This document shows, in pieces, positions 47,240 to 54,956 of a DNA stretch of 64,000 bases. Source of the DNA: Planctomyces sp. (GTDB lineage Bacteria > Planctomycetota > Planctomycetia > Planctomycetales > Planctomycetaceae); NCBI GenBank assembly GCA_016795105.1, contig JAEUIH010000004.1, positions 62,001-126,000 of the forward strand, written 5' to 3'. The translations under genes and the position numbers were made by a program. The notes under the pieces were generated by a model. That model was not told the DNA's origin and made no database searches. It saw nothing but the letters and a program-made list of their open reading frames with translations. How positions within the stretch are numbered: the stretch's first letter is position 1; each line of letters begins with the position of its first letter.

Positions 47240-48883
47240 ATGTCAGCCTATCGCGACCATCTCACGACACTCAGACGCGCATTTCCGCAACCTGTTTCCG
47301 ACCAGGAGCACGATGCCTGGTTCGTATTTTCGATGCTGCGTGCACTTGATCGTGTGGATGACCTGAAGTCTCAGCGGCCGATGCTCGGCGAACCTCAGCA
47401 GATCGACTTTTCGAAGGCGATGCTGGCAAAGGTTCCCGAGGGGCTCAGTACCGTCGAAGAGGTCTCGAAACAACTGGTTGACCACCTGGCAGGCATGTTC
47501 ATCTGGGGACATCCTCGGTCACAGTCAAACGTGATTCCACCACCATGCATTCCCGGGATTCTCGGCACCTTGTTGCCTGCGATCTATAACCCGAATTTGT
47601 GCAGTGAAGAGGCCAGCCGAGGTGTTGCTCTGGCGGAAGCTGAAACGATCAGCATGACATCGGCACTGATGGGCTATGACCCTCAGCAGTCTGGCGGCGT
47701 GTTTACGTTTGGCGGTACGGCGACTTTGCTTTATGGAATTCGAATCGGGATCGAGAAGTGTTGTCCCGGGACGATTCGATCCGGACTTCGCGAACAGCCG
47801 GTCGTTGTGTGTTCCGATCAGGCCCACTATGCCACAAGCACTGCGGCCGCATGGCTCGGACTCGGGCTGGATAATGTGATTAAGGTTCCAACCGCACCCA
47901 ACAACGAAATGAGAACCTGTCTGCTGGAATCTGAGCTTCGGCGATTGCTGCGAGAGGGAAGAAAGATCGCCACAATTGTCGCGACGATGGGAACAACGGA
48001 TGCGTTTGGGCTGGACCCGCTCGAGAAGATTCGTGAGATTCGGGATGATCTTGTTGCGGAGTTCTCTTTGGACTACGTACCTCATCTTCATGCTGACGCG
48101 GTGATTGGATGGGCGTGGAGTGTGTTCAATGACTATGACTTCGCGAAGAACAGCCTCGAGTTCCCGGACCGAACGCTGAGAGCCCTCGCCGGAACTCACC
48201 GCCGCATTCGCCATCTCGGACTGGCGGACTCAATCGGAGTGGACTATCACAAGACCGGATTTGCTCCTTACGTTTCAAGTGCCTTCTTCGTTCAGAAGGC
48301 CACAGATCTGAGGCTGATTACTCGCGATCAGTCCACGACACCATATCTGTTTCAGTCAGGCGACTACAATCCAGGGCGGTTCACTCTGGAAACGACTCGG
48401 TCCGGATGCGGACCGATGGCTGCGCTGGGGTGCCTGAATCTGATGGGGAAAACGGGCCTTCGAACATTGTTGGGGCACTTGGTGACAATGGCGGAGACTC
48501 TTCGCAATCGACTCACGGCACAACCAGCAATCAGTGTGATGAACCCCGACAACTTTGGGCCCGTTACTCTATTCAGAGTGTATCCGGATGGAGTGGATAC
48601 CTTCGAATTTCCAAAACTCGAGCAGACAAACGCTCAGAATGCCGGGCTCTTGAAAGAATATAACGAATACAATCGTCGAGTCTTCCAAAAGGTTCATGCG
48701 GAAGCTCTTCGAGGCGATGGCATCGTGATTTCGATGACTGACCGCTTTCGAGAGACGGACTATGGTCATCCAGTTGTTGCTCTGAAGTCCTACATTATGA
48801 GCCCATTCTCGGACACGCAGTATGTGCAGGCCGTCGTGGATTCGATCGAACGGGCAAGGCAACAATTGCGATCGGAAGGCTGA
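47240..48883 (+). CDS. Group II PLP-dependent amino acid decarboxylase
   Basis: 547 residues, resembling glutamate/tyrosine/aspartate decarboxylases. Seen are FTFGGTATLLYGIRIG, the HADAVIGW cofactor Asp (about 284), and SIGVDYHKTGFAPY with the Schiff-base Lys near 338. An N-terminal helical part (1-110) is longer than in the GadB type, closer to tyrosine decarboxylase-like or CsdA-type families. Substrate cannot be set; aspartate to beta-alanine, or a diamine route, are options. It lies 80 bases after the methyltransferase. Two repeat families sit immediately downstream. Confidence 0.85.
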   Translation: MSAYRDHLTTLRRAFPQPVSDQEHDAWFVFSMLRALDRVDDLKSQRPMLGEPQQIDFSKAMLAKVPEGLSTVEEVSKQLVDHLAGMFIWGHPRSQSNVIPPPCIPGILGTLLPAIYNPNLCSEEASRGVALAEAETISMTSALMGYDPQQSGGVFTFGGTATLLYGIRIGIEKCCPGTIRSGLREQPVVVCSDQAHYATSTAAAWLGLGLDNVIKVPTAPNNEMRTCLLESELRRLLREGRKIATIVATMGTTDAFGLDPLEKIREIRDDLVAEFSLDYVPHLHADAVIGWAWSVFNDYDFAKNSLEFPDRTLRALAGTHRRIRHLGLADSIGVDYHKTGFAPYVSSAFFVQKATDLRLITRDQSTTPYLFQSGDYNPGRFTLETTRSGCGPMAALGCLNLMGKTGLRTLLGHLVTMAETLRNRLTAQPAISVMNPDNFGPVTLFRVYPDGVDTFEFPKLEQTNAQNAGLLKEYNEYNRRVFQKVHAEALRGDGIVISMTDRFRETDYGHPVVALKSYIMSPFSDTQYVQAVVDSIERARQQLRSEG

Positions 48884-48911
48884 GAGTACACGCCACTCCT
48901 GATCGTTCAAA

Positions 48912-48951
48912 CCAAAGTACTCATCACGCTCCGCCGTGATGAGTACTTTGG
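48912..48951. repeat. Perfect hairpin repeat CCAAAGTACTCATCACG
   Basis: Arms of 17 bases (CCAAAGTACTCATCACG and its exact complement) flank the loop CTCCGC. It lies 28 bases past the stop of the decarboxylase gene. The same termini bound the larger elements at 54772-54956 and 62031-62126, making this the minimal form. No T-tract follows, so terminator function is possible but not classical. Confidence 0.88.
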
Positions 48952-48965
48952 CAGGGGTTGACTCA

Positions 48966-48990
48966 GTCGCCTGCGGCTAGCCGTTAAACT
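48966..48990. repeat. Dispersed repeat GCCTGCGGCTAGCCGTTAAACT
   Basis: Single copy of the unit also found at 20127-20151 and 23682-23737, here with A in the middle (GGCTAGCC). It lies 14 bases after the hairpin repeat, so two unrelated repeat families are adjacent behind one gene. Confidence 0.8.
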
Positions 48991-49089
48991 GTTTGGGATT
49001 TCCGTTCGAAAACCTGGTGGATGGTGTCTAAAGTCCCCCTGTGAGACTGCTCCGCTGGTGGGGCCTCATTTGGCTGGACTTTAGAGAGA

Positions 49090-50832
49090 ATGCTGACAAT
49101 GACGGATTTGCATGAGACTGGAAGACTGCGGCTCTGGCCGGCATGGTTAATTTCAGCCATAACCCTTGCTGCCCTCGTCATTTCCGTCACGCCTTCCATA
49201 GCGAACCGACCACGATTTCTGGTGATGATGGCAGGACCATTGCTGGTCTCAGTTCTGTTTTCCGGCTGGGTGCTGTTTGGGAGCAGGCTTCGCTGGAGGG
49301 AAAAACTTGGTCTGGCAGCCGCGGCTGTGATTTTCCCGGTGATCGCAGCGATGATCTCGGTTCCTGAATCTGCACTTCGGACGACTTTATGGACGAACGG
49401 AGTTCCTCTGGCAGTGTTCACAGTGACAGCCGGCTTGAGTCTGGCATCCATGCATCCTCGTCGATCCTGGGTGGCTGCCACTTTGCTGGCGATTGGCTGG
49501 GGCAGTTTTGCGCTGGTGAGGAACGAAGGGTTTGACGGTGATTACTATCCGGAATTCACATGGAGATGGAATCCGGTTCATGAATCAACGTTACCGCAAC
49601 TGGGCTCCTCAAGTGTCGGCGGCAAGCTGCCAGAATCACAGGATGCTCAGTCGAGCGACGAGACTGAAACGCTTTCCTGGCCAGGTTTTCGAGGTCTTGA
49701 TGGAAGTGGAGTAATTGCCGACAGTCTCCCATCGACAGACTGGAAGGCCAATCCACCGAGAGAAGTCTGGAGAATTCCGGTGGGGCCGGCATGGTCTTCG
49801 TTCAGTCATCACAACGGTCGACTGTTCACTCAGGAACAGCGGGGCGATCTGGAATACATCACCTGCTATTCAGCGGCGGACGGGCAGCTCATCTGGAGTC
49901 ACTCGGACTCAACGCGATTTACGGAAGTCGTGTCCGGCGCTGGACCCAGAAGTACTCCCTCTGTTCGGGATGGACATGTGTTTGCACTCGGAGGTCGAGG
50001 GTTGCTGACATGCGTTCGGGAGAGCGACGGAGTGTTGGTCTGGCAACGAAATCTGGAAGCAGAGTTGAGTGCTCCGGTCCCTATGTGGGGGTTTTCCGGA
50101 TCACCTCTGATTCATGATGGGATGTTGATTGTCTATGCCGGAGGATCGGATGGTCACGGACTGATTTCCCTTGACAGTGCCACCGGCAGTCCGAAATGGA
50201 AGTTTTCATCGAGCGGGATGAACTACTCAACGGCTCGCGTCTTCACTCTTTCAGAGCAATCGTTGATTGTCTTTTGCGACAGCAACGGAGTGCATGCACT
50301 CGAGCCACAGACCGGGACAGAAGTCTGGACTTTCAAGCCTGATGAATGGCAGGGGCCACCCATGGTTGACCCTCAGCTGCTCAGTCCGGATCGACTCCTG
50401 ATTTCACTGGGCGATGGAATAGGGATGTGTTGTCTTGAAGTGAAATCGTCTGATAAGAAGTGGCTGGTGAACGAGTTGTGGAGGTCAACCCGGTTGCGTC
50501 CGTCATTCAATGATTCAGTCGTTGATGGGGATTCTGTTTATGGCTTCAATCAGTCAATTTTCTCCTGCATTGATGCAAATACGGGTGAACGACGCTGGCA
50601 TGGTGGACGCTACGGTTTTGGTCAGGCGGTCCTGCTGAAGGATTCATCTACAATTGTCGTGGCCGCCGAAAACGGAGATGCCGTATTCCTGAAGGCAACT
50701 CCGGAGAAGCTTGAAGAACAGCTGCGAATGCCGGTGCTGAATGACAAGACGTGGAATCATCCGATCGTGGTGGGCAGCCGTTTGTTCATGCGGAACGGCA
50801 AGGTTGCTGTCTGCCTCGAATTGGTAAATTAG
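49090..50832 (+). CDS. Membrane-anchored PQQ-type beta-propeller protein
   Basis: 580 residues. Four hydrophobic segments in the first 140 residues (LISAITLAALVISV, FLVMMAGPLLVSVLFSGWVLF, LAAAAVIFPVIAAMI, VPLAVFTVTAGLSLA) precede an outer beta-propeller with PQQ-like blades. WPGFRGLDGSGV opens the propeller, as in many planctomycete PQQ-repeat proteins; blades contain DGQLIWSH, DGVLVWQRN, GSPKWKF and GTEVWTF. There is no clear PQQ-cofactor site, so it may be a BamB-like scaffold rather than a dehydrogenase. ATG 49090. The photolyase fusion gene starts eight bases after its stop. Confidence 0.83.
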   Translation: MLTMTDLHETGRLRLWPAWLISAITLAALVISVTPSIANRPRFLVMMAGPLLVSVLFSGWVLFGSRLRWREKLGLAAAAVIFPVIAAMISVPESALRTTLWTNGVPLAVFTVTAGLSLASMHPRRSWVAATLLAIGWGSFALVRNEGFDGDYYPEFTWRWNPVHESTLPQLGSSSVGGKLPESQDAQSSDETETLSWPGFRGLDGSGVIADSLPSTDWKANPPREVWRIPVGPAWSSFSHHNGRLFTQEQRGDLEYITCYSAADGQLIWSHSDSTRFTEVVSGAGPRSTPSVRDGHVFALGGRGLLTCVRESDGVLVWQRNLEAELSAPVPMWGFSGSPLIHDGMLIVYAGGSDGHGLISLDSATGSPKWKFSSSGMNYSTARVFTLSEQSLIVFCDSNGVHALEPQTGTEVWTFKPDEWQGPPMVDPQLLSPDRLLISLGDGIGMCCLEVKSSDKKWLVNELWRSTRLRPSFNDSVVDGDSVYGFNQSIFSCIDANTGERRWHGGRYGFGQAVLLKDSSTIVVAAENGDAVFLKATPEKLEEQLRMPVLNDKTWNHPIVVGSRLFMRNGKVAVCLELVN

Positions 50833-50840
50833 CGGATTCC

Positions 50841-53390
50841 ATGTCAGATATGACTTCTGAATTTCTCGACTTGCCTCCGCATCTGGCAGAACGATGTCGA
50901 TTTTTTTTGAGTTCTGCATGCGGAAGATTGGAAACTCTGAGGACACTCGAGTCTCCTGGTTCGTTTCTGCTGTATTGGATGAGAACAGCAATTCGCGTCG
51001 ACGAGAACCCGGCCCTGGACGTGGCCAGACATGTTGCACACCAGAAGAATGTTCCATTGCTTGTGTATCAGGCGTTGTCAGAATCGTATCCATACGCCTC
51101 GGATCGCCACCACGTCTTTATTTTGCAGGGGGCTCGTGACGTTCAGGTGGCGTTTGACGAGATGGGGATCAGTTACGCGTTCCACCTCGAGCGTCCCGGA
51201 GTGGAAGATGACTATCTTCGACAGCTGGCAAATGCGGCTTGTGCTGTCATCACAGAAGAGATGCCGGTTCCGCCCTCGCTGGATTTCCTGAAGTGTGTAG
51301 CAGAGCAGTCGTCCACGCCTTTCCTGTGCGTCGACACGGCTTGTGTCGTTCCGATGCAGCTCGTCGGTCGCGCCTTTGATCGAGCTTTTGAATATCGTCG
51401 CAGGACTCGTACGCTCTACGCCAGTCGTGTTCATCATCATTGGCTCGACAATGCTCCAATGCCGGATCAGTACAGACTTGAGAACCTGCCTTTCAGGCCA
51501 GTGAATCTCGTGCACGAAGACCTGGGCAGTCTGGTGGCTGCTTGCCGGATCGATCATTCTGTCGGCCCGGTGACAGACACAACGGGAGGATCAAAGGCGG
51601 GGTATGAGCGGTGGACTCAATACCGGGATCAGAGGCTCCGCTACTATGCCGCGACGCGAAACAATCCACTCGTGACGAATGGCGTCAGTCGCATGTCGGC
51701 TTACCTCCACTATGGAATGGTGTCTCCATTCCGTATCGCCAGAGAAGCTGCTGACTTCAAACACGAAGGAGCAGAAAAGTATCTCGATGAGTTGCTGATC
51801 TGGAGAGAACTGGCCTATTCATTTTGCTTCTATACGGAGCGTCCGCACGACTGGAACGCCTTACCGGAATGGGCACGAAGAACACTCGAAGCTCACCAGT
51901 CAGATGCCAGGGTTGCTGATTTCTCATGGGAGCAAATGGCACGAGGAGAAACGGGGGATCGGCTTTGGGATGCTGCACAGAAGTCGCTGTTGATTCACGG
52001 TGAGTTGCACAACAATGTGCGAATGACCTGGGGGAAAGCGTTCCTCGAATGGACGAACACACCGCAACGGGCCATGCAGATGGCCTTCGATCTGAATGAT
52101 CGATACGCGCTCGATGGTCGCGATCCAGCGTCGGTAGGCGGAATTCTCTGGTGTTTTGGACAGTTTGATCGCCCCTTTTTCCCGGAATCAGAGATTTACG
52201 GAACAGTCCGACTCCGCCGAACTGCAGATCACGCAAAACGCCTTGATGTCGAACGGTATGGGAAGCATACGACTGTCTCCCGAGCCTCCCGTAAGCCTCG
52301 AATTGCGGTGATTGGATGCGGAGTTTCCGGTGCGTCTGCTGCTCGAGTTCTGACCGACCATGGGCTCGATGTCACTGTGATGGAAAGAGGACGTGGTCCG
52401 AGTGGACGATCCGCAACACGTCGCACCGATCTCTTTCACTTCGATCATGGCGCGCCCTGCTTCACGGTACGGAGTCGCCAGCTTCGCAGGGATGTTCGAT
52501 CATGGTCGCAGCAGGGACTGACTGCACGATGGGAGGGACGATTCTGTACTCTGGAAGGAGGCGATCTCTCATCAGGTGCGGTTGTGCCGGAGACGGGAAG
52601 GGTGCGTTATGTGGGAGTTCCTGGAATGTCTGCCCTTGGTCGACATCTTGCGAGTTCTCTAAATGTTCTGTTTGAAACTGAGATTGCCAGTCTGCATTCT
52701 GAAACAACAGGAGTGTTATTGCTGGATGATCAGAATCGTGAGTGTGGCGAGTTCGATCATGTGATCCTTGCTATGCCGGCTCCTCAGTCAGCACGACTGG
52801 TGCCCGAATCGTTGCCACTCAGGAAGGTCCTGGAGTCGATCACCTATGAGAGTGTTTGGGCACTGATGCTGACTCTGCCGCAACGACTGACGGTTGACTG
52901 GAATGGGCTCACTTGTTCAGCGGGGCCCATTCGCCGAGTCAGCAGAGAACAAACAAAGCCCGGACGATTGCAGGCGGGTGGTGACAGAAACAGTCAGGAT
53001 GTGCAGGAGCATCTCGTGATTCATTCCTCCGCCACCTGGGCTTCAGAACGGCTGAACGAGACTCCTGAGCAGGTTGCACAACTCCTGTTTCGGGAGTTGG
53101 AGATTCTGATGTCCCGTTCGCTCGCTGAACCATTGCATGTTCAGTCGCATCGATGGCGTTTCGCGTTGCCTCAGTTTGCCTATTCCGTTCAGTCCGGAGC
53201 AGGGCCTCAGTCGGCGTTCAAGCCCATACAGCCGTTCCCGGCGACTCAGGTGATCGCGAGTGTTGACGATGAGTCGCGTATACTCGCGTGCGGCGACTTT
53301 CTCGGAACGCACAGCGTTTCCGGAGTCGAGTCGGCGTATTTGAGCGGGATTGCGGCTGCCGGTTGCATTTTACGCAATCTGCGAACGTAG
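50841..53390 (+). CDS. Fusion of class II-like photolyase and renalase-like FAD oxidoreductase
   Basis: 849 residues in one frame. Residues 1-475 match a class II-type CPD photolyase: SFLLYWMRTAIRVDENPALDVA at the N-terminus, WRELAYSFCFYTERP (about 321), NNVRMTWGKAFLEWT and LDGRDPASVGGILWCFGQFDR, the FAD-pocket region. From about 487 an amine-oxidase/renalase-like (COG3380) domain starts: RIAVIGCGVSGASAARVL, FDHGAPCFTVRSRQLRRDV, SWSQQGLTARW, ending in ILACGDFLGTHSVSGVESAYLSG. Start ATG 50841, eight bases after the propeller gene. No frameshift or stop joins the halves, so the fusion is real in this sequence. Confidence 0.9.
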   Translation: MSDMTSEFLDLPPHLAERCRFFLSSACGRLETLRTLESPGSFLLYWMRTAIRVDENPALDVARHVAHQKNVPLLVYQALSESYPYASDRHHVFILQGARDVQVAFDEMGISYAFHLERPGVEDDYLRQLANAACAVITEEMPVPPSLDFLKCVAEQSSTPFLCVDTACVVPMQLVGRAFDRAFEYRRRTRTLYASRVHHHWLDNAPMPDQYRLENLPFRPVNLVHEDLGSLVAACRIDHSVGPVTDTTGGSKAGYERWTQYRDQRLRYYAATRNNPLVTNGVSRMSAYLHYGMVSPFRIAREAADFKHEGAEKYLDELLIWRELAYSFCFYTERPHDWNALPEWARRTLEAHQSDARVADFSWEQMARGETGDRLWDAAQKSLLIHGELHNNVRMTWGKAFLEWTNTPQRAMQMAFDLNDRYALDGRDPASVGGILWCFGQFDRPFFPESEIYGTVRLRRTADHAKRLDVERYGKHTTVSRASRKPRIAVIGCGVSGASAARVLTDHGLDVTVMERGRGPSGRSATRRTDLFHFDHGAPCFTVRSRQLRRDVRSWSQQGLTARWEGRFCTLEGGDLSSGAVVPETGRVRYVGVPGMSALGRHLASSLNVLFETEIASLHSETTGVLLLDDQNRECGEFDHVILAMPAPQSARLVPESLPLRKVLESITYESVWALMLTLPQRLTVDWNGLTCSAGPIRRVSREQTKPGRLQAGGDRNSQDVQEHLVIHSSATWASERLNETPEQVAQLLFRELEILMSRSLAEPLHVQSHRWRFALPQFAYSVQSGAGPQSAFKPIQPFPATQVIASVDDESRILACGDFLGTHSVSGVESAYLSGIAAAGCILRNLRT

Positions 53391-53559
53391 CATGCTCGAA
53401 TGACGAGGTGGACGATTTTTCCCAGAGTCGCCCTTGATAAAGCCAATTTGTGGCAAAAATGAGAGCAGTTGTCGCGGAGTATTATGAACAATTGAACGTT
53501 TTGGACGTTTGCGTGGGGCTTTCTGCGGGTTGCACGGAATATCGAGGGGAAAGAGTCGA

Positions 53560-54225
53560 ATGTCATTGATTTTGGATGAAACGTACGCCGATTCCTTGGC
53601 CGAAGACGTTTGTGTGCATGGCAACAGAAATGTCGCAGCAGGAAATTCGGCGAGCACCTGTCCGGTAGACTATGCAACCATTCAGGCTGCAGTTCGAATG
53701 ATTCTGCGGGCTGTGGGGGAGGATCCGGATCGCGAAGGGCTGCTCGAAACACCAAGACGAGTTGCAAAGATGTATGGCGAGATGTTTGCCGGCCTGCAGC
53801 TGGATCCGGGCCGGCATCTGGATGTCACGTTCCGTGAAGACTACGACGAAATCGTGCTCGTGCGGGACATCGAGTTCACGAGTATGTGTGAGCACCATCT
53901 TCTGCCTTTCCGGGGAGTTGCTCATGTTGCTTATATTCCAAACGGTCGCGTCACTGGCCTGAGTAAGCTTGCTCGAGTCGTCGAGGAAGTCTCACGTCGT
54001 CCTCAGGTACAGGAAAGAATGACTCAGACGATTGCCGATCTGATCGAGGAGCGGCTTGGAACATCAGCAGTCGGGGTGATTGTCAAGGCTGAGCATTCCT
54101 GTATGTCGATGCGAGGAATTCGCAAGCAGGGCAGTATGACTCTCACAAGTGCAATGCGAGGCTTGTTCAGGACGGATGCAGCCAGCCGCGCAGAATTGAT
54201 GGCTCTGATCAATTCGCCAAACTAA
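53560..54225 (+). CDS. folE: GTP cyclohydrolase I
   Basis: 221 residues. Converts GTP to dihydroneopterin triphosphate, first step to folate and, through QueD, to queuosine. Core motifs: [39 protein letters not shown] with zinc Cys and His, [21 protein letters not shown] and [18 protein letters not shown] with the second zinc Cys. ATG 53560 is chosen for the GAGGGGAAAGAG just upstream; a GTG/ATG at 53509 would add 17 unrelated residues. The queD-like gene begins 17 bases after the stop. Confidence 0.95.
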
Positions 54226-54241
54226 ATCTTTGAGGTGTTCT

Positions 54242-54751
54242 GTGATTATTCAGAAGCAATACAAGTTCTACGCAGCTCACCGAAACGAGATGCTGCTCGA
54301 CAAGTGCAGGAATCTCCACGGCCACCGCTATGGTGTTCGCTGTTTCTTTGAGGTTGAACGAGACGGCCATATCAGTACTTTATTCGGAGATTTTGATGCT
54401 CTGGTGGAGCCATGGCTGAAAGAAAACTACGATCACGGAATGCTGATCAATAAACACGACCCGTTGTACGAAACACTCCAGCATCACATGCAGCGGACTG
54501 GTGAAACGCTCCGCCTGAATGTGTTCGACGGTCCGACAAGTGTCGAAAATCTCTGTCACAAGTTGTTTACAGAGATTACTCAACTCGGACTACGCCTGGA
54601 ACGGCTGGAAGTGGCAGAAACGGATACATCAGTCGTGAGCTATTCGCGCGAAGACTGGGTTGCAGACAATCGATACTTTCAGCGACTTCAGGCGACTGGC
54701 AGACCAACCGAAGCACCGAGTGACTCGTGCCTGTGTAGTCCCGTCGCCTGA
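54242..54751 (+). CDS. queD: 6-carboxytetrahydropterin synthase (QueD/PTPS family)
   Basis: 169 residues. KFYAAHRNEMLLDKCRNLHGHRYGV holds the active-site Cys and zinc histidines of the PTPS fold; GDFDALVEPWLKENYDHGMLIN and VENLCHKLF follow, with the Glu in VAETDTSVVSYS near the C-terminus. GTG 54242 has GAGGTG five bases upstream; TTG 54230 is less likely. Slightly longer than E. coli QueD (121). Adjacent folE supplies the substrate, so preQ0/queuosine synthesis is likely; a PTPS role is the alternative. A large repeat element starts 20 bases after the stop. Confidence 0.88.
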   Translation: MIIQKQYKFYAAHRNEMLLDKCRNLHGHRYGVRCFFEVERDGHISTLFGDFDALVEPWLKENYDHGMLINKHDPLYETLQHHMQRTGETLRLNVFDGPTSVENLCHKLFTEITQLGLRLERLEVAETDTSVVSYSREDWVADNRYFQRLQATGRPTEAPSDSCLCSPVA

Positions 54752-54771
54752 CGAGAAGAAGGCCATCATCC

Positions 54772-54956
54772 CCAAAGTACTCATCACGCTCCGCCGTGAT
54801 GTCGAACCCTGGCCGAAAGTACTCATCCCGGTCCGTCGTGATGTCGAACCCCGGCATGGCGTGCGCATGCTGGACGCAATCCAGCCAGCCAGTCGCCGTC
54901 TGCGATGAGCGGCGCCAGGGACTCGTCATTACGACGTGGCATGATGAGTACTTTGG
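54772..54956. repeat. 185-base element with 15-base terminal inverted repeats
   Basis: Ends CCAAAGTACTCATCA and TGATGAGTACTTTGG are exact complements. Near the left end a 57-base unit (AAAGTACTCATC...GTGATGTCGAACCC) is present twice in tandem. The right half shares GACGCAATCCAGCCAGCC and ACTCGTCAT with the element at 62031-62126. It encodes nothing. No clear target-site duplication is visible. Confidence 0.82.

Follow-up and report, generated by a model that had tools for sequence, protein, structure and literature searches.

Photolyase operons hold redox genes whose function has not been explained. In Pseudomonas mendocina, a FAD-dependent oxidoreductase, a short-chain dehydrogenase/reductase (SDR), and phrB are encoded in one likely light-inducible polycistron, and folE and phrB both figure among the light-inducible Pseudomonas genes (according to the part of PMC9758184 that deals with these genes). 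Renalases act as oxidases on NAD(P)H isomers of the 1,2- and 1,6- types, which arise from non-specific photochemical, electrochemical or chemical reduction (as stated in text passages of PMC7660482, which treats human renalase and covers the bacterial work as its reference 24). Among photolyases, the PhrSph98-type "bifunctional CPD/(6-4)" enzymes (CPD: cyclobutane pyrimidine dimer) are presented as the sister group of class II in the main text of PMC9649867. Sequences with Thr or Leu at Y389 (the equivalent of Y380 from Methanosarcina mazei; node 13) were kept outside the 55 homologues of that study, and its main text is devoid of the words "oxidoreductase" and "fusion". Here, we describe a protein in which a photolyase and a renalase-like oxidase are joined. 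It is encoded at 50841..53390 (+) in a 64,000-nucleotide stretch from Planctomyces sp. (assembly GCA_016795105.1, contig JAEUIH010000004.1, positions 62,001 to 126,000, forward strand), which is referred to as the window. Both enzyme folds are known, and their combination recurs; searches of openly accessible papers, some of which mention photolyase and Rhodopirellula, revealed no description of a photolyase-renalase fusion.

Translation of 50841-53390 (+) starts with ATG and yields 849 aa in a single open frame, the sole stop being the terminal one. A first-pass annotation of the window, which was made from the letters alone, had described such a stop-free 849-residue frame, composed of a class II-like photolyase and a renalase-like FAD oxidoreductase, and this is borne out by the translation and by profile and structure matches. 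The class II-type photolyase half covers 50871..52274 (+; about aa 11-478). TIGR00591 (phr2) matches over about aa 38-474 (E 2.8e-96, 323.6 bits, which is under the curated cut-off of 550.05); among Pfam domains, DNA_photolyase is slightly above and FAD_binding_7 under its cut-off. The closest kin in the PDB is the M. mazei class II CPD photolyase. The class II fold is complete in the predicted model (4cdn_A: Z 44.6, root-mean-square deviation [rmsd] 2.3, 450 residues), which scores Z 44.9 against the rice enzyme (3umv_B) and Z 31.0 against the class I structure 1owm.

Window residues E317, W321, W376, N391, M395, T396, W397, W404, N419, and W437 correspond to M. mazei positions E301, W305, W360, G375, M379, Y380, W381, W388, N403, and W421, respectively. 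M. mazei W360/W381/W388 represent what we take to be the class II electron-transfer Trp triad. Residues were counted in 69 fused photolyase domains; L069, which is the window again, was left out, while the identical L054 and L073 are both included. The FAD-contact Asn (N403 equivalent) is kept in all 69, and Trp occupies the triad positions in 66 (W360), 69 (W381), and 65 (W388) of them. At the position of M. mazei Y380, Thr is found in 69/69 fused domains, compared to Leu (22), Tyr (16), and Phe (1) in 39 other standalone rows. The fused domains also differ from these rows at the positions of Y376 (Asn in 67/69, versus Tyr in 36/39) and D404 (His in 59/69, versus Asn in 25 and Asp in 14; the window has Asp). 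The photolyase half from the window departs at only 3 of the 123 columns which are conserved to at least 85% across the fusions. The label "class II" therefore applies with a reservation, since the fused photolyases form a separate subclade that is marked by Thr at position Y380.

The invariant Thr next to a triad Trp might be taken to indicate that the photolyase half does not repair DNA but serves as a cryptochrome-like light switch which governs the oxidase. Repair could then be covered by a second, ordinary class II photolyase, since a search of the host genome revealed a single copy of the fusion and such a separate enzyme on another contig. However, the lesion-pocket residues are kept, as repair predicts (E301 in 68, W305 in 68, M379 in 66, and W421 in 69 of the 69 fused domains), and we consider a role as photoreceptor highly improbable.

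The renalase-like FAD oxidoreductase half covers 52293..53387 (+; aa 485-849) and presumably corresponds to the label COG3380. Over about aa 487-849, it matches the Pfam domains Amino_oxidase and NAD_binding_8 and the bacterial renalase 4zcc from the PDB (E 5e-40). It belongs to the flavin amine-oxidase superfamily, with bacterial renalase ranking first among solved structures. In the predicted model, the renalase fold extends over the whole second half (4zcd_A: Z 42.1, rmsd 1.8, 323 residues; 3kkj_A: Z 42.1), with scores of Z 33.7 against human renalase and Z 31.8 against protoporphyrinogen oxidase.

An alignment of 67 fusions, from which L062, L098, L119, and L125 were excluded in addition to L069 (both L054 and L073 being kept), places the GxGxxG motif for FAD dinucleotide binding at 52314..52331 (+; aa 492-497). 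Its glycines are conserved in 67 (G492), 67 (G494), and 66 (G497) sequences, and the motif as well as G522, R523, and G537 are present in 66-67 of the 67. The oxidase half from the window departs at 3 of 44 columns conserved to at least 85% (A493C, K516R, and G521S, the latter replacing the first Gly of GGR by Ser). It further has P539 and C540, where Q and Y occur in 51/67 and 46/67 fusions, and F820, where W occurs in 55/67. With just three conserved columns changed, a decayed second half can be ruled out for the window, while some relatives look decayed. A lack of FAD-binding residues in one half, which the first-pass annotation had named as a potential objection, is not seen in the alignment of either half.

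The junction, bounded by the last well-conserved Arg of the photolyase (aa 457) and by the Gly which opens GxGxxG (aa 492), covers 52212..52313 (+) and is of near-constant length. The distance between these residues is 35 in 55 of the 67 fusions, 34 in eight, 33 in two, and 39 in two. AlphaFold models were obtained from separate alignments for the window protein and for L116, a member from the phylum of one "delta proteobacterium" metagenome-assembled genome (MAG; see below). Their mean confidence (predicted local distance difference test, pLDDT) is 88.5 and 90.5, respectively, and their predicted template modelling score (pTM) 0.90 and 0.92. Across the junction, block means of pLDDT are 88-96 for the window (aa 461-500) and 83-97 for L116 (aa 441-480); the L116 block directly ahead of the junction (aa 431-440) reaches only 52. 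Because the junction is short, of nearly constant length, and mostly modelled with high confidence, the two domains are probably held in a fixed relation.

When public species genomes were searched with the window protein, 31 loci were obtained, 30 of which have both halves in one frame; the remaining locus, L062, is cut by a contig end inside the second half. Carriers include Rhodopirellula, Aporhodopirellula, Neorhodopirellula, Stieleria, Rubripirellula, and Mariniblastus and, outside the named planctomycetes, two "delta proteobacterium" MAGs and one Candidatus Sumerlaeaceae MAG. Three phyla were then sampled. For Planctomycetota (393 genomes with a completeness of at least 90%, the window's own included; limit E <= 1e-75), 28 genomes match, 23 of them with a single stop-free match which spans both halves. 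Of the others, G324 has its two halves on separate contig ends, and four genomes have the photolyase only. Among 282 genomes from the phylum of one "delta proteobacterium" MAG, which is itself counted, 28 likewise match (limit E <= 1e-60): 21 are joined, two have only a photolyase of the fused clade, and five only another class II-type photolyase. Among the 21 joined cases, G618 and G648 are cut at contig ends, and G614 has the N-terminus of the photolyase in another frame. For the phylum to which the Sumerlaea MAG belongs, the fusion is found in 2/40 genomes, one being the seed MAG itself. Distribution among near kin is patchy: of 59 genomes, the window's own and three more (G025, G036, and G054) match over both halves.

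Since several bacterial groups share this gene fusion, we consider it a real and long-kept design. An assembly artefact is ruled out by this recurrence, and the fusion is not confined to this one assembly, a concern for which the first-pass annotation had suggested a database search.

A tree of 113 photolyase domains was computed by a quick method; it is unrooted and counts the window twice (L069). Duplicate or truncated sequences were omitted (L001, L002, L006, L041, L051, L056, L090, L099-L106, L109, L129, and L137), as was L134, and rows with fewer than 380 matched query positions (e.g., L125) were excluded by rule. L130 was labelled as fused by hand, since the query with the oxidase half fell below the limit, yet a single match extends over both halves. 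The fused photolyases are found in one clade (SH-aLRT 99), in which L127 and L128 are the sole standalone rows. The former has no renalase within the surrounding 17-kb stretch; the latter is located at a contig end. The host's ordinary class II enzyme (L003) is placed among other standalone enzymes from planctomycetes and at a distance from the fused clade. The nearest rows outside that clade are L142 (from a Polymorphobacter/sphingomonad plasmid) and L135, the placement of L142 being unsure because of its long branch. The label "fused" requires three changes on this tree; the fusion may have had a single origin.

We propose that the protein is a photolyase with a built-in oxidase, which would act on a reduced product that arises in the light, and thus a two-flavin light-repair protein. 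We hold the chances of this proposal to be about even; it builds on the predicted activities of both halves and on a presumed substrate. The N-terminal half would bind FAD, which would be photoreduced via the class II Trp triad (fold and residues are seen), and would use light to split UV lesions in DNA. The C-terminal half, with its bacterial-renalase fold and its own FAD site, would accept a hydride from some small reduced molecule and hand it to oxygen. The likeliest substrate would be misreduced 2- or 6-dihydro isomers of NAD(P)H, or a closely related reduced heterocycle, generated by light-driven flavins. Being joined, the clean-up oxidase would be made and placed together with the photolyase during the light/UV response, and no obligatory wire between the two flavins would be involved. 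A photolyase-linked oxidase for NAD(P)H isomers is reasonable because renalases oxidise them and photochemical reduction yields them, as described in the text of PMC7660482.

The proposal can be compared with the gene neighbourhoods. We inspected 70 fused loci with flanks, about 15 kb each (L041 and L056 left out; repeats of one genome kept, e.g., L054 and L166). Companion genes code for a DPRP photolyase (16 loci), an SDR (12 loci, plus L160 with a third SDR query), a small membrane protein that matches no Pfam domain (12 loci), a Nei-type glycosylase (11 loci), and DUF2256 (seven loci). Among 21 ordinary class II loci of comparable length, two have an SDR gene, and counts are zero for DPRP, the membrane protein, Nei, DUF2256, and renalase. 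The fullest arrangement is that of L151 (6831-12466), a same-strand row of five genes for a DPRP photolyase, the fusion, DUF2256/DUF3253, an SDR, and the small membrane protein. In five Rhodopirellula-type loci, upstream genes resemble squalene synthase and hydroxysqualene dehydroxylase, and an IspH-like gene is near (L047, L048, and L053 as judged by clustering; L057 and L058 as judged by eye from translations). The first-pass annotation had read a fusion as direct evidence that both halves work together. In outline, this is supported by the recurrence and by the partial linkage to genes for light response and UV repair; the support does not extend to a mechanism.

Several observations weigh against our proposal. 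Fused loci differ modestly from ordinary class II loci (Fisher test: 0.018 in the case of DPRP and 0.061 in that of the membrane protein), and the fused loci are not independent, nine being close Mariniblastus-type relatives. Each companion is missing from most fused loci (DPRP is absent in 54/70), and the window stretch itself carries no DPRP, SDR, DUF2256, Nei, or membrane-protein companion. Across the fusions, the oxidase half is more variable than the photolyase half, and in L086, L122, L130, and L131 about one third of its conserved columns are altered. Fused and unfused copies interleave in the oxidase tree, which has long branches and is poorly resolved; 11 changes are needed, at least three of them forced by starred branches. 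A clean split between fused and unfused copies was not found in this tree, and a single fusion event is therefore not claimed from the oxidase half. G459 has a standalone photolyase of the fused clade with no renalase within 17 kb and one elsewhere in the genome. Finally, within genus g8, G302 has the fusion while G010 has an unfused oxidase which is sister to the fused one.

Such apparent fissions would fit a joining of two co-expressed light-response enzymes for convenience, by loss of a stop and with neither physical nor metabolic coupling. The same can be said of the absence of the fusion from most sampled genomes, and of the oxidase half, which in some lineages changes faster and is partly decayed. 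A junction that keeps its length nearly constant over 67 fusions from several phyla, and the distribution of the fused form over several phyla, argue otherwise, and we regard a mere convenience fusion as unlikely.

Unfused relatives of the oxidase were analysed in two sets. The first consists of seven plasmid loci, hand-picked and not random; they come from 18 rows for the oxidase half, which in turn belong to the 25 records listed out of 44. Four of them carry folE (L145, L198, L199, and L201) and two a photolyase-type gene; an SDR gene is found in L145, L199, and L201, and DUF2256 in L145 and L201. L145, from a Burkholderia plasmid, additionally shows a partial DPRP match, a MerR-family regulator, and a photolyase gene, and the best solved relative of its oxidase is bacterial renalase. 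No folE, SDR, DUF2256, MerR-family, or photolyase-type gene was found by the unfused oxidase in plasmid loci L143 and L202. The second set consists of 12 Planctomycetota loci (two on contigs shorter than 9 kb), with a photolyase-type gene in two (L192 and L196) and folE in none. These counts rule out that every unfused oxidase is accompanied by folE or a photolyase. The association of such oxidoreductases with photolyase genes, which the first-pass annotation had given as an established pattern in some bacteria, is thus supported for part of the unfused loci inspected.

Two further arrangements concern unfused copies. In L200 (6992-9567, plasmid) and L192 (6922-9132, planctomycete), the renalase-like gene adjoins that for a protein of about 390 aa which has the photolyase FAD domain (PF03441) only and is perhaps a short photolyase-like protein. 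In L143 (3593-7041), the renalase-like gene is near genes for a bacteriorhodopsin-like protein and a Brp/Blh carotene dioxygenase.

The photolyase types near unfused oxidases are varied: class II in L196, DPRP in L145, and FAD_binding_7 only in L192 and L200. This bears on an electron relay, in which the flavin of the oxidase would accept a hydride from a nicotinamide substrate and hand electrons on to the photolyase flavin, which would thus stay in its active FADH- form in the dark. The near-constant junction, which is ordered in the window model, would permit a fixed flavin-flavin geometry. Yet the Trp triad for ordinary photoreduction is retained, each half also occurs alone, and the unfused oxidases are not tied to one photolyase type. 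A direct relay is disfavoured because the halves are apart in G459, and because one genus has the fusion in one genome and a sister unfused oxidase in another. We consider a relay very unlikely. As for the earlier suggestion of a reductase which would feed or reoxidise photolyase FAD, the lone halves and the varied photolyase neighbours speak against an obligatory relay of this kind.

Downstream of the fusion, the window carries folE for GTP cyclohydrolase I at 53560..54225 (+); the open reading frame list starts it at TTG 53509, with ATG 53560 located behind a purine-rich stretch. Four bases after folE follows a gene of the 6-pyruvoyl-tetrahydropterin synthase (PTPS) family at 54230..54751 (+). 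The genome has two folE and three PTPS-family genes in total, the window folE being 67% identical to the second folE and the window PTPS 72% identical to another PTPS-family copy. The presence of folE and PTPS in the window, and of folE by some unfused oxidases (four of the seven plasmid loci), makes a pterin substrate the main rival: the oxidase half would make, recycle, or dispose of a reduced antenna or otherwise light-linked pterin of the photolyase half, and NAD(P)H isomers would not be its substrate. CofG is required for the 8-hydroxy-5-deazaflavin (8-HDF) antenna. A CofG profile search of the host genome gave only sub-threshold matches (48.3 bits, cut-off 213.35), which would suit a pterin antenna but comes from a single model and a single draft genome. 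The light-inducibility of both folE and phrB in Pseudomonas, as given in the relevant part of PMC9758184, would fit as well.

On the other side, folE and PTPS adjoin the fusion in the window alone among the 70 fused loci, so that folE next to the fusion is ruled out as a general rule (1/70). The Planctomycetota loci with an unfused oxidase lack folE (0/12), and a PTPS gene is also near 1/21 ordinary class II photolyases. Furthermore, we know of no pterin activity of any renalase. On balance, a pterin substrate appears rather unlikely to us.

Upstream, a gene for a PQQ-type beta-propeller protein (49090..50832, +) ends 8 bases ahead of ATG 50841 of the fusion, and the fusion frame is open as far as GTG 50751, which itself lies inside this preceding gene. 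The two genes are possibly co-transcribed. A scan of 48850-54900 for promoters and terminators gave signals no more frequent than in shuffled sequences. As to the host's ordinary class II photolyase, it is encoded on contig 22 (L223 5059-6576, -) and adjoins a 180-aa gene with a weak, sub-cut-off match to a polyketide cyclase (SRPBCC-type).

To our knowledge, little is understood of what bacterial renalases do in nature. Through a fusion that recurs and has a junction of near-constant length, the renalase fold is linked to photorepair, and this link can be tested in one protein and its two halves. The fusion also marks a distinct photolyase subclade: beside an electron-transfer Trp, Thr is present in 69/69 cases, at a position taken by Tyr, Leu, or Phe in the other class II-type enzymes. 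A bolder possibility is a self-contained two-flavin photoenzyme with fixed geometry, in which direct exchange of electrons, antenna pterin, or product would couple repair to the redox state of small cofactors. We consider this decidedly unlikely; if it were true, the light/UV response would be the natural setting of bacterial renalases.

Compared to known systems, the photolyase half shares with class II CPD photolyases (M. mazei MmCPDII, 2xry/4cdn; rice, 3umv) the whole fold, the FAD and lesion-pocket residues, and the Trp triad. It differs by an identity of only 28% in the structural alignment, by a score below the TIGR00591 cut-off, by its assignment to a separate subclade, and by the C-terminal oxidase; the window has HNNVRMTW where the M. 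mazei enzyme has HGYTRMYW. With PhrSph98, it shares Asn at the N384 position (window N391; 67/69 fused proteins), which is not discriminating, as 35/39 other standalone rows also have Asn. PhrSph98 has Tyr at Y389, whereas all 69 fused proteins have Thr, a distinction that follows the criterion given in the main text of PMC9649867. The sphingomonad plasmid photolyase L142 is possibly of the PhrSph98 kind. The oxidase half resembles bacterial renalase (Pseudomonas 4zcc/4zcd/5krq/3kkj) over the whole fold (Z 41.4-42.1, rmsd 1.8-2.1) and in the FAD motif, but with 31-33% identity in the structural alignment and joined to a photolyase. The oxidoreductase from the P. mendocina phrB operon, as far as that operon is described in PMC9758184, would belong to the same family as the oxidase half. 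This operon and L145 have in common a photolyase, an SDR, and a FAD-dependent oxidoreductase, to which L145 adds folE and DUF2256. In both, photolyase and oxidase are encoded by separate genes, unlike in the fusion, where they are parts of one protein.

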